From IMG/VR virus record IMGVR_UViG_3300011118_000010, positions 1 through 45,624 of that record: DNA of 45,624 nucleotides; one strand, 5' to 3'. Below, one piece after another: positions 20,421 to 39,319 of the stretch (its first letter is position 1; each line of letters starts with the position of its first letter). Under the pieces are notes generated by a model that was not told the origin of the DNA, searched no databases, and saw only the letters and a program-made list of their open reading frames with translations. The position numbers were made by a program, and so were the translations under genes. The stretch comes from a virus.

Positions 20421-20494
20421 TGGAGCGGGGTGCAGGAATCGAACCTACCCCTCCGAGTGGTTGCTCGGTGCGTCACCATTGACGCCTACCCCGC
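20421..20494 (-). tRNA. tRNA-Gly-like gene with aberrant anticodon loop
   Basis: It folds as a full cloverleaf: acceptor GCGGGGT/ACCCCGC (7 bp), D-arm GCGTC-AATGGT-GACGC, anticodon stem CCGAG/CTCGG, a four-base variable loop, T-arm GTAGG-TTCGATT-CCTGC, then T-CCA encoded at the 3' end. The ends and D-loop resemble bacterial tRNA-Gly (glyU). The anticodon loop is CAACCA, six bases without U33, which is not canonical. ACC would be the Gly-like triplet. It overlaps the last 50 bases of the ParB-like gene. It could be a decayed tRNA, a tRNA mimic or an integration-site relic. Confidence 0.75.
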
Positions 20495-27977: not shown

Positions 27978-28442
27978 TCACACCATGTTCGCGACGTCGG
28001 CGTACTCCGTCGACGGGTACGGGCCGTGAATCGTAATCGCCACCTGTCCGCACTCTTGCCCCTCGCGCACCGCCACGAGCCGAGCCACGACCATGTTGTC
28101 ATCGTGGAACAGCGTGTCGAGGATTCCCTTCACGATGTTGTCCGGGTCGCCGTGCCGGAACCCCTTGAAGTCGATGCGGATGTCCACGAGGAACTGGAGC
28201 TTGTGTTCGAGCATCGGCCAGATGATGTCGAACAGCGTCGCCTTCTGCTCCGCCGTCATCGCCAGCATGACCCATTCTCTGTATCCGTAGTAGCGACCGA
28301 GCGCGTTCGGCGTGCCGTCCTTCCTCTTGGTCGTGTGCCACTTCCCGCCCTGCGTCGTCCGCGTGTACGGTCGGGGATTCCCGTCCGGCTCGTGGTTGTT
28401 CCCGACGACCGTGAAGCAGATGCGCTCCTTCTTCTCGCTCAT
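27978..28442 (-). CDS. RusA-family Holliday junction resolvase
   Basis: A protein of 154 residues. The RusA active-site block GDPDNIVKGILDTLFHDDN is intact: Asp99, Asp101, Lys105, Asp109 and Asp114-115. ATG at 28442 overlaps the preceding stop. The length is a little above E. coli RusA, with an extra N-terminal segment (KWHTTKRKDGTPNALGRYY). It resolves recombination or replication branches before packaging. Confidence 0.9.
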   Translation of the reverse strand: MSEKKERICFTVVGNNHEPDGNPRPYTRTTQGGKWHTTKRKDGTPNALGRYYGYREWVMLAMTAEQKATLFDIIWPMLEHKLQFLVDIRIDFKGFRHGDPDNIVKGILDTLFHDDNMVVARLVAVREGQECGQVAITIHGPYPSTEYADVANMV

Positions 28443-28665: not shown

Positions 28666-28947
28666 CTAGTCCTCGGCGCGGGTCGTCTCCCACACCCGGA
28701 CGGTGTCGGCGTCCGCGCCCTCTAGCTCGCTCACCCGGACGTGCAGGTCCCACATCAGGGTCTCGTGCGTCCGCCGTATCTGCACCCACGGCGGCTTGCT
28801 CATGTAGCCCGTGATGACGTCCGCCCGCTCCTTCGCGTAGTCCTTGACCTCGCGCATCTCACGACGCTCGACAGTGAGCATCACAACCGCGACGGTCAGC
28901 GCGAGGATGGCGAGCGCGAACAGGCCGTCCAGTTGGCTCCGTTTCAT
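28666..28947 (-). CDS. TM plus coiled-coil protein
   Basis: A protein of 93 residues. The N-terminal helix LFALAILALTVAVVMLTV is a membrane anchor. It is followed by a charged coiled coil (ERREMREVKDYAKERADV) and an acidic end. ATG at 28947 overlaps the upstream stop by ATGA. The topology resembles an inner-membrane spanin, but it is far from the lysis genes and no outer lipoprotein partner is adjacent. Function open. Confidence 0.6.
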   Translation of the reverse strand: MKRSQLDGLFALAILALTVAVVMLTVERREMREVKDYAKERADVITGYMSKPPWVQIRRTHETLMWDLHVRVSELEGADADTVRVWETTRAED

Positions 28948-29819
28948 ACCCACGCCTCCAGCTTCTCCATCACGTCGAAGATGTGGCCGCTGTTGTCGAA
29001 CACGATGGCACCCGGACAGAACGCCCGGGCGAACGCGACCGCCTCCACCACCCGGAACTTGGGCAGGTCGTAGGCGATGAGCCTGCCGTCCGCTGGCAGA
29101 ATCATCGGCGGCTCTCGGAACAGTCGCCACGTCACCGCGCCGTACAGACCGTTGAGCGCGACGTCCATGTCGCGCCGTCCGTCCTCCTTCTTGGTGCGCG
29201 GGAAGTTCTCGTACACCGTGCCGTCGAGGACCGTCGCCCTGTGCCAACCGTTGCCGTAGACGGTCATGTCGAGGCCCTCTCGTCCGAGATGGAACTGGAG
29301 ACCGCTCGCGAACTGGTAGAGCCCATGCCGCCACGTCGCGTCCACCGCTTCCTTGTCCTCCCTGCTCATGCCCACGAACTCATGCCTCCACGTGACCGTG
29401 TCGTGCAGGAAGTCGAGCATCAGCCCGTCCGCCTTGAAGCCGTGCGGGTCCGGACGAATCATCTCGATGTGCGCCTTGATGAGCTTCCTGCGAAGCTGTG
29501 GCATCGACTGGTCGATGAGTTGCCAAACCCCCTCTCCCACTCGTGGCGCGTCCATCCCTTCCGGCGCGTAGCCGAGAAGCCATCCGTTGCCGTCGTCGAG
29601 TATCTCCCGGATGACGTCATGCTGTGGCGTCGAGAGGTCCGGGTTCAGATACACGGTCGGGATGTGGACGTAGACCTTCATCCCCGCCTCTTGATACGTC
29701 GCCGCCGTCGCCTGCCACTCCGGCTCTCCGAACGTCCGCCACGGAAGGACCACGACATCGAACCTCGGGTCCAACTCCTGCGGCGGTGCCTCGCCTCTGA
29801 CGAAATACCCTGCTCTCAT
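28944..29819 (-). CDS. Glycoside-hydrolase-like TIM barrel protein
   Basis: A protein of 291 residues from the ATG at 29819, with GGGGGAG four bases before; an earlier in-frame start would fall inside the origin region. The pattern FDVVVLPWRTFGEPEW, KVYVHIPTVYLN, GNGWLLGYAPEG and especially FKADGLMLDFLHD, then AIVFDNSGHIFD is that of uncharacterised TIM-barrel glycosidases such as GH114 or GHL-type. There is no signal peptide, so it would act in the cytosol or after lysis. First gene after the putative origin. Confidence 0.6.
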   Translation of the reverse strand: MRAGYFVRGEAPPQELDPRFDVVVLPWRTFGEPEWQATAATYQEAGMKVYVHIPTVYLNPDLSTPQHDVIREILDDGNGWLLGYAPEGMDAPRVGEGVWQLIDQSMPQLRRKLIKAHIEMIRPDPHGFKADGLMLDFLHDTVTWRHEFVGMSREDKEAVDATWRHGLYQFASGLQFHLGREGLDMTVYGNGWHRATVLDGTVYENFPRTKKEDGRRDMDVALNGLYGAVTWRLFREPPMILPADGRLIAYDLPKFRVVEAVAFARAFCPGAIVFDNSGHIFDVMEKLEAWV

Positions 29820-30022
29820 CGCTCCCCCCTTCGGTGCATAACCGGTGGACAACTCGGTGGATAGCTGGTGGAGAGCTGTGCATAAGTCGGTCGCTCTGCG
29901 ACACTTATCAACAGCCCTCCAGAGTTACCCACCGTTGTCCACAGTTGTCCACATGGCAATTGCCCCCCGCATCTCATGGTACAGTGGGCCGTTGCGTCAC
30001 CTTATCCACATATCCACAGGCC

Positions 30023-30037
30023 CTACTACTACTACTA
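30023..30037. repeat. Five CTA trinucleotides (candidate DnaA-trio)
   Basis: CTACTACTACTACTA follows the DnaA boxes and a GGCC spacer. The complementary strand read 3' to 5' is GAT repeated five times, the canonical DnaA-trio on which DnaA extends to open oriC. Confidence 0.75.
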
Positions 30038-30182
30038 TGTACTTATGTACTTCAGTAGCAGTACTGCTTCCGAGTCCGTCCGGCTTGTGTGAGAGGGTCC
30101 TCCTGCCCCTCTTGTGGCACACATACGTGGTCCGTGAGCCACGTTCGGTCCTTGTCGAGAGGGTGATGTGGGCGGGGGCCGT

Positions 30183-30195
30183 CCGCTCGTAGCGG
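30183..30195 (-). other. Hairpin after the SSB-tip gene
   Basis: CCGCT, loop CGT, AGCGG lies 28 bases beyond the stop of the gene at 30223. It has no T-run, so it is a weak terminator candidate or a border of the origin. Confidence 0.35.
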
Positions 30196-30222
30196 GCCCA
30201 TTTGCCCCCACCCTGAGAGCCT

Positions 30223-31689
30223 CTAGAACGGCAGGTCGTCCTTTGCCGTCTGCTCTCCCGTCTCGCCCTTCATGCGGGCCATGACCGCCGCCGCGAGATG
30301 CTCCGTGCAGTACGGCGGCATGTTGACCGCGACCGAGGCGTCGACCTCCTTCGACGTCACCTGCTTGGCGCAGGTCAGACAGAGAGGCGGTCCCGGCGGC
30401 TGACTCTCCCGTTCGAGTTCCTCTCTCGTCGGTCCCGACACGTCAACCTCATCGGTGTTCGGGTCCGGCGCGGCAGGCCCTTCTGCCGTCGGCGTCGGGT
30501 CCTTCCCGTCGTTCTCTAGTTCAAGCGGGATGGAGTACTGGGCGAGCGTGTCGACGTAGCGTCCCGTCGCGAGCCAGTTCAGGACCCGCTCCCACTTCTC
30601 GTCCAGCTCCTTCGACGCCGCCATCAGGTCACCGGGGCCCATGTCCGCGAACGAGAGCTTGACGGCTAGCGTGAGGGACGCGGCAAAAGCACGCTTCATG
30701 TTGACCGCGTCGCCGTCCGACACCACACCGCTCTGCTCCGCGACCGCCGCAAGCATCCGCCGCCACTTGCCGTGGAACGTGCGGAGCTGTGCGACCCGGA
30801 CCTCCTCGTCCGACTTCTCGGGGATGCGCGGCTTCTTCGGTGCCGTCGCCTCCATGCGCGTGCCGCCTCCGCCTCCTCCCTTCCACGGCGGGTCCACCGC
30901 GAGGACACGTCCGACTGCCGCCATCTCCTTGATGAACAGCTCGACGAACGCCATCGGCAGATGTTGTTTGTAGGCGTTCCGAATCGCGAGGCTCACCGCC
31001 GCTCTCCGGGCGAACTTATCGAAGATGACCTTGCCGTTGCGGAGGGTCTTGTAGGCCGGGACGTCAGCGTAGCCGGGGAGCCGCCTTCCGGTCTCCATGT
31101 CCTTGACGTACGCGGACGCGGACCACACAGACTGCGGAACGCCCTCCGGGTCCGGAACAGGTATCAGCTCGACCTTGTCACCCTCCACTTGGAGGAGTGT
31201 AGCGTGTTCCTCCTCGTACGACCGGACGAGCTGTTTGATGCCGTTGTAGTTCAGCTCGTAGTGGGCGACGCCGTCCTTGTCCGTCCACATCACGACGCAC
31301 TCGCGCATGATGGCAGAGCCGCTCATCTCCTGCGAGACGAGGACGATGTCCATGCCCTCGATGACCTCGAACATGTCCTTGCCCTCGACTGCGAGAACCT
31401 CGTCCTTTGCCGTAGCATCCTCCTCTCCCTGTGCGTTCTGGCCCTTCGGGTTCTTCTCGCCCAACTGCTTGACCAGACGCTTGCCGCACAACTGGCAGAG
31501 ACCATAGGCTCCGTATCGCTCCGCCGCCACCAACGAGTCCAGCTTCTTCGCGCCGAAGGGACCGCGCACGCGGTGTCCGCACAGCGGCTCGTCTCCGACG
31601 TAGTAGTGGACCTTGCCTTCCTTCGCGGGCTTGGTCGGGTCCGCCTTGTCCACGGACTCCGCCCACCCCTGCTCGACTACCTTGACCAT
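30223..31689 (-). CDS. Zinc-binding DNA-metabolism protein with SSB-like C-terminal tip
   Basis: A protein of 488 residues, ATG at 31689 behind GGAGGACACG. An N-terminal zinc motif (LCGHRV, then LCQLCGKR) is followed by HYELNYNGIKQLVRSYEEEH and KVIFDKFARRAAVSLAIRNA, which weakly recall RecT/Bet-type annealing proteins. A glycine run and two charged regions come next, then CLTC with CTEH as a second ribbon. The last residues are AKDDLPF, like the SSB tip that recruits host repair enzymes. It is the only sizeable candidate replication/recombination protein and borders the origin. Confidence 0.6.
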   Translation of the reverse strand: MVKVVEQGWAESVDKADPTKPAKEGKVHYYVGDEPLCGHRVRGPFGAKKLDSLVAAERYGAYGLCQLCGKRLVKQLGEKNPKGQNAQGEEDATAKDEVLAVEGKDMFEVIEGMDIVLVSQEMSGSAIMRECVVMWTDKDGVAHYELNYNGIKQLVRSYEEEHATLLQVEGDKVELIPVPDPEGVPQSVWSASAYVKDMETGRRLPGYADVPAYKTLRNGKVIFDKFARRAAVSLAIRNAYKQHLPMAFVELFIKEMAAVGRVLAVDPPWKGGGGGGTRMEATAPKKPRIPEKSDEEVRVAQLRTFHGKWRRMLAAVAEQSGVVSDGDAVNMKRAFAASLTLAVKLSFADMGPGDLMAASKELDEKWERVLNWLATGRYVDTLAQYSIPLELENDGKDPTPTAEGPAAPDPNTDEVDVSGPTREELERESQPPGPPLCLTCAKQVTSKEVDASVAVNMPPYCTEHLAAAVMARMKGETGEQTAKDDLPF

Positions 31690-38751: not shown

Positions 38752-38830
38752 GGGGCTGGTCGGTGGTCCGCATCGCCGCTCTCGCTTGCTCATCCCACCA
38801 GTCGTTCGGCCTCGGCTAGTCACCAGCCCC
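38752..38830 (-). promoter_or_regulatory. Stem-loop in the early leader
   Basis: GGGGCTGGT (38752-38760) is the exact complement of ACCAGCCCC (38822-38830), and GGTGG/CCACC can pair inside. The stem closes 17 bases before the first gene's start codon and takes in the end of a 14-codon leader frame. Possible attenuator or riboregulator. Confidence 0.45.
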
Positions 38831-38860
38831 GTAATCGTTGTCGTTGTCCTTGTCCTTCAT
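38816..38860 (-). CDS. Possible 14-residue leader peptide
   Basis: ATG at 38860 to TAG at 38816 reads MKDKDNDNDYGAGD, rich in Asp/Asn/Lys. Its last codons form one arm of the leader stem. The ribosome site is weak, so this is a suggestion only. Confidence 0.25.
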   Translation of the reverse strand: MKDKDNDNDYGAGD

Positions 38861-39167
38861 CTTGCAAGCTCTCTGCCCCTGTCGCCCTCCACCCTCAAGT
38901 GGCTGACTCGCTGACCGTTCTGCCTTGCTACGGACTCGCTTCCGGTGGAGTGCTCACTCACTCCCCTCTCCCCTCACCCCGTAGCCGCCGTTCGATGCTC
39001 AGCTCGGCTCAAGCCTTTCTTCCGACCGTCCTCTGGTTCACTCTCTCCGGGCCGCGTCCTTCTGGCACCTTCGAGTTTGCCGTCGGGTCTTTGTTTTCAA
39101 GGAGCGCGTCAAGTGCTTGTAGTGCAAGAGGTGTGCCGGTGTTCTTGTCTTTGTTCGAACTATCTTC
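38861..39167 (-). other. Untranslated early leader
   Basis: Roughly 300 bases between the early promoter and the leader peptide. The minus-strand text is purine-rich. One open frame (ending at 39009) has protein-like composition but no start codon downstream of the promoter. A small hairpin, CTTG/CAAG, lies around 39116-39128. No gene supported. Confidence 0.4.
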
Positions 39168-39196
39168 ATTGTAATTGAAGGGCCATTGAGTGTCAA
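39168..39196 (-). promoter_or_regulatory. Main early promoter
   Basis: Minus strand: TTGACA at 39196-39191, 17-base spacer, TACAAT at 39173-39168; start near 39161. It lies in the most AT-rich stretch I noticed. The palindrome ATTGA-GTG-TCAAT (39185-39197) overlaps the -35 and could be an operator. Confidence 0.85.
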
Positions 39197-39260
39197 TAGA
39201 TATTATCATCGTATTTCTAGAAGGCTTCGGACGGGGGTCAAGAGGGGGCAAATCGGGCTC

Positions 39261-39300
39261 ATAAAAATACCCTCAGAACGGCCCGCGAGAGGTCCGTAAA
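39261..39300 (-). terminator. Probable terminator of the late operon
   Basis: On the minus strand ACCTC (39293-39289) can pair with GAGGGT (39274-39269) around a GC-rich loop, followed by ATTTTTAT. A second T-run (CTTTTTAC) lies on the other side, so it may work in both directions. It separates the last lysis gene from the early promoter. Confidence 0.5.
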
Positions 39301-39319
39301 AAGGGTGTGGTCATTTGTC

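Follow-up and report, generated by a model that had tools for sequence, protein, structure and literature searches.

The window, that is, the whole stretch of DNA analysed here (an IMG/VR record of 45,624 bp), is best interpreted as an entire, circular phage genome, since its ends have 19 bp in common and a 784-aa reading frame runs unbroken over the end-to-end join. Almost all of its genes lie on the minus strand, and among them are those of a tailed phage (Mu-like portal, F and gp36 proteins, terminase, major head protein and amidase), along with a DAM-like methylase, a RusA resolvase and a ParB-like protein. When kin of the phage were sought by way of the terminase and the 488-aa protein listed in Table 1, IMG/VR pattern searching returned none and INPHARED none of use. 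At 20421-20494 ARAGORN predicts a tRNA-like gene to which no anticodon could be assigned, and the long intergenic gap at 38774-39319, possibly a promoter region or a second replication feature, holds the 50 bp with the lowest GC content in the genome (32%) together with a local change in GC skew, and is free of DnaA boxes.

The region of interest is the gap upstream of the minus-strand gene at 28944-29819. Its start codon is most likely the ATG at 29817-29819, not the TTG at 29852, so that the gap comprises exactly 29820-30222, the bounds given in an earlier sequence-only reading of the window. DnaA boxes were scored against TTWTNCACA, a consensus that may differ from the preference of the host's DnaA, and by this measure the gap contains seven boxes with at most one mismatch, two of them exact (at least five good boxes, one of them perfect, had been claimed before), in addition to three with two mismatches. 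The genome as a whole has 16 boxes with at most one mismatch, two of which are exact, and seven of the 16, including both exact ones, fall within one 240-bp stretch. These seven span under 190 bp, whereas the maximum in 40 shuffled genomes was three per 240 bp. No Rfam families were detected in the region, and no iteron array was found around the element.

Table 1. Features of the intergenic region and its surroundings (positions are those of the window).
Feature	Position	Strand	Basis or remark
RusA-like Holliday junction resolvase	27978-28442	-	family match
Intergenic origin-like region	29820-30222		from the ATG of the minus-strand gene at 29819 to the stop of the gene at 30223
DnaA box TTATGCACC, 1 mismatch	29833-29841	-	consensus scan
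Weak DnaA box TTGTCCACC, 2 mismatches	29844-29852	-	consensus scan
Weak DnaA box CTATCCACC, 2 mismatches	29856-29864	-	consensus scan
DnaA box TTATGCACA, exact to TTWTNCACA	29877-29885	-	consensus scan
DnaA box TTATCAACA, 1 mismatch	29905-29913	+	consensus scan
Weak DnaA box TTACCCACC, 2 mismatches	29925-29933	+	consensus scan
DnaA box TTGTCCACA, 1 mismatch	29935-29943	+	consensus scan
DnaA box TTGTCCACA, 1 mismatch	29945-29953	+	consensus scan
Exact DnaA box TTATCCACA, upstream box of the unwinding element	30002-30010	+	consensus scan
Second tandem box ATATCCACA, 1 mismatch, overlaps TTATCCACA	30010-30018	+	consensus scan
GC spacer GGCC	30019-30022	+	read from the sequence
Five CTA triplets, 3'-GAT-5' DnaA-trios on the lower strand	30023-30037	+	unique run
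Presumed unwinding stretch	30023-30060		about 40% GC against 64% in the genome; predicted to melt
488-aa protein, family not recognised, ends in DDLPF (SSB-like tail)	30223-31689	-	sequence

The sequence-only reading had described GGCC followed by five CTA triplets, and both are indeed present. The five triplets form the genome's sole run of at least four CTA/TTA triplets, and a search for a box (at most two mismatches) combined with a spacer of 0-16 and at least two CTA triplets returned one site in the genome and none in 60 shuffles. Such an arrangement of DnaA boxes, GC spacer and DnaA-trios has been named the basal unwinding system (BUS) and occurs in Bacillus subtilis and in 85% of predicted chromosomal origins (PMC8287927). 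According to the published rules, the boxes have at most two mismatches and often come as two in tandem, the upstream one nearer the consensus; the spacer is at most 16 bp long, with a peak at 10-13; and the trios number at least three, 3'-GAT-5' being the commonest (PMC8287927). In the phage, the exact box at 30002 and the tandem box at 30010 adjoin the trios, the spacer counted from the exact box at 30002 measures 12 bp, the five 3'-GAT-5' trios are consecutive and in the correct orientation, and the element belongs to a cluster of seven boxes, in keeping with the BUS-type arrangement that had been proposed.

The likeness extends to the individual letters. The 28-letter core TTATCCACATATCCACAGGNNCTACTACTA was found in 20 bacterial genomes of several phyla, nearly all of them box-rich around the core, and all 28 specified letters match chromosomal origins of Binatota, Thermus, Clostridium and others. 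Ten of the 13 full-length dnaA loci that were examined contain the core. In these 10 it lies downstream of the midpoint of the DnaA AAA+ domain, at a distance of about 0.9-1.2 kb, which places it just past the 3' end of dnaA, the usual position of the dnaA-dnaN gap. Because of this match, the phage element is not distinguishable in sequence from these chromosomal origin cores.

Pattern scans of IMG/VR for loci with the box and trio motif and at least three exact boxes yielded 31 loci, corresponding to 24 clusters of unrelated DNA. Among the records whose repeated ends mark them as complete are G006 (36.5 kb), G009 (36.7 kb) and G013 (44.0 kb), and each of these carries phage structural genes. 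Three candidates (G012, G015 and G017) have few boxes and appear to be chance hits or weak ones, G012 and G017 lying inside ORFs. On viral contigs, box-then-trio order was found at 34 loci and the reverse order at 6; a further exact box was present at 28 of the 34 compared to none of the 6 (Fisher 2e-4), and at least two further exact boxes at 22 of the 34 true-trio loci compared to 1 of 43 scrambled-trio loci (Fisher 1e-9), both p-values being somewhat optimistic because some loci are related to each other. Raw box-trio counts showed no enrichment over the scrambled trio (34 vs 43); we read the scrambled word as one that is itself common in coding DNA, and the informative measures are therefore the box array and the order-reversed control. 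The sequence-only reading had regarded the capture of host DnaA through a complete opening element as an unusual strategy that might also titrate DnaA away from the host origin: a full element does reside in this phage, in which no DnaA gene was recognised, but the arrangement is not peculiar to it and recurs in many viruses.

Conservation was compared in other viral lineages, the phage of the window being one for which no close relative was found. Alignments of two groups of related phages show the box-spacer-trio block to be one of the best-preserved parts, with divergence in the flanks, and in L014, L071 and L075 the spacer varies while box and trios are kept. A preserved block with changing flanks is what would be expected if a DnaA-opening element were under selection. 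A repeated TATRCGGCATNNTCGCAT-type element lies between DnaA boxes upstream of the BUS in the related phages L068, L072, L077 and L189. The cultured Klebsiella phage PA45-9 (L170, 15377-15416) has an intergenic array of exact DnaA boxes, as TTATCCACAG repeats and without trios, and other Klebsiella phages of 44-46 kb gave similar matches. Among tailed-phage kin of the methyltransferase neighbour in G016, neither a box array nor a trio run was found in Eggerthella PMBT5 (whole genome) or in Bacteroides UZM3 (half of the genome covered).

When the element was used as a blastn query, gokushoviruses were matched, the lowest E-value being 2e-5. A cluster of boxes with CTA triplets behind it is present in each of the complete circular genomes KT264804, KT264801, MG945381 and MT135258. 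In KT264804 (L106, 881-1240) and in L167, L168 and L169, all complete gokushovirus or microvirus genomes, this arrangement lies in an intergenic gap. Gokushoviruses are thought to use rolling circle replication with VP4, which is annotated in KT264804 ('similar to VP4' in MG945381), and for this reason the element may act on the double-stranded form in these viruses, or have another role. A search of open-access titles and abstracts found no literature tying gokushoviruses to DnaA boxes.

A GC-skew switch at 30 kb, also anticipated by the earlier reading, was not seen in the phage genome; there is thus no sign of long-term bidirectional replication from this point, and the near one-way orientation of the genes could mask such a signal. 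Among the complete records, a detrended skew minimum lies near the BUS only in G013 (317 bp off). The phage had further been said to lack replication genes, and six-frame and ORF searches indeed recognised no DnaA, replicative helicase, polymerase or initiator family, but most early-region proteins have no known function and, being unclassified, leave room for a cryptic initiator. Lack of DnaB or PolA was rejected as a mark of BUS phages, since the counts are alike in BUS records (DnaB in 3/23, PolA in 0/23) and in control viral records (3/20 and 1/20, respectively); as their absence is common in the controls too, the missing genes of the phage are weak evidence. The 488-aa protein has a distant homologue (24%) in G083 (L199, 3247-4254), another GC-rich viral record of 46 kb with a BUS-like motif, and the two possibly represent a new family of ssDNA-binding or annealing proteins; single-sequence structure prediction of the 488-aa protein gave a mean pLDDT of 39, too low for the model to be of use.

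We consider it likely, from sequence comparison, that the gap at 29820-30222 is a functional DnaA-dependent phage replication origin with the layout of a bacterial chromosome origin. We infer for it that DnaA binds, that the strands melt, that helicase is loaded, that replication is of the theta type and that host dnaA is required. Host DnaA would occupy the array of boxes together with the tandem pair at 30002/30010, from which its filament would grow past GGCC to reach the lower-strand GAT trios; the stretch from 30023 to about 30060 would then melt, allowing the host helicase and replisome to load and to copy the circular genome, with RusA perhaps resolving recombination products ahead of packaging.

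An unrecognised phage initiator could instead be the main actor, with boxes and trios as helpers in a DnaA-assisted origin of the P1 or pSC101 type. The many early-region proteins without a family would accommodate such an initiator, some other records with the element (G019, G044 and G047) carry a DnaB-type helicase, and the gokushoviruses with the element also encode VP4; yet the element has no iteron array around it and no initiator family emerged from the six-frame or ORF searches, and we regard this explanation as unlikely. Still less probable is a titration or regulatory site, at which the boxes would sequester DnaA, or would govern how the gene at 28944-29819 is transcribed, and have no part in replication. 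The box cluster does lie directly upstream of the start codon of that gene, but neither titration nor promoter control calls for trios whose spacing, order and orientation are canonical, the same box-trio combination recurs beside changing neighbour genes, and a sigma-70-type promoter match is absent.

That the contig is chimeric or misassembled and holds a fragment of a host oriC seems to us very improbable. Such mix-ups do enter the databases: MT836067 (L107), labelled 'Bacteriophage sp.', has dnaA and dnaN-, recF- and gyrB-like genes around an oriC-like array and looks like a dnaA-dnaN fragment of a bacterial chromosome. The element of the window, however, lies between phage genes in a circular record, with dnaA, dnaN, recF and gyrB absent nearby, and independent circular phage records show the same arrangement. 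No DnaA gene was found in the 53 viral records checked, the phage of the window included, while positive controls were detected; the viral records with BUS therefore do not look like dnaA-linked pieces of chromosome.

A DnaA-dependent phage origin, our preferred reading, points to some phages borrowing the initiator of their host to begin replication. The wider proposal, on which we are evenly divided, is that many unrelated bacterial viruses, with tailed dsDNA phages and ssDNA gokushoviruses among them, each acquired a complete chromosome-type element independently and use it as an origin of their own, with host DnaA as the sole initiator and in competition with the host chromosome for this protein, which would constitute a replication class not described before. 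BUS has so far been described as a feature of bacterial chromosomes, and here it is complete, conserved and recurrent in viruses without DnaA. No published phage with a BUS element was found among open-access titles and abstracts and few subscription papers or preprints, and the novelty is provisional; one report on a Pseudomonas phage gives DnaA boxes predicted by Ori-Finder, with no mention of trios in the passages covered (PMC11512268). Viral BUS elements would offer small natural mini-origins for the study of DnaA, a direct test of whether host DnaA suffices as sole initiator of a phage, and a simple DNA signature for predicting the replication mode of uncultured phages, and they suggest a conflict between phage and chromosome over DnaA.

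The origins P1 oriR and pSC101 are non-chromosomal and DnaA-assisted, and need their own Rep protein and iterons. The phage region resembles them in having DnaA boxes in what would be a non-chromosomal origin relying on host DnaA, and differs in that a DnaA-trio opening element is present and neither a Rep or other initiator family nor an iteron array was found. With lambda-type phage origins, which are organised around iterons for the O protein, it would share the outcome, theta replication by the host replisome, although the phage has no O/P-like proteins and no iterons. No trio unwinding element is known from datA and other DnaA titration sites; the phage region has a DnaA-box cluster as they do, but combines it with trios at canonical spacing. 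From a chromosomal oriC it is set apart by its place in a 45.6-kb phage genome with no DnaA gene, no dnaA/dnaN neighbours and no GC-skew switch, and we therefore class it as BUS-type rather than as a chromosomal oriC. With the bacterial BUS it has in common the tandem boxes with the better one upstream, the 12-bp spacer, a run of at least three consecutive trios and the setting in a box cluster.
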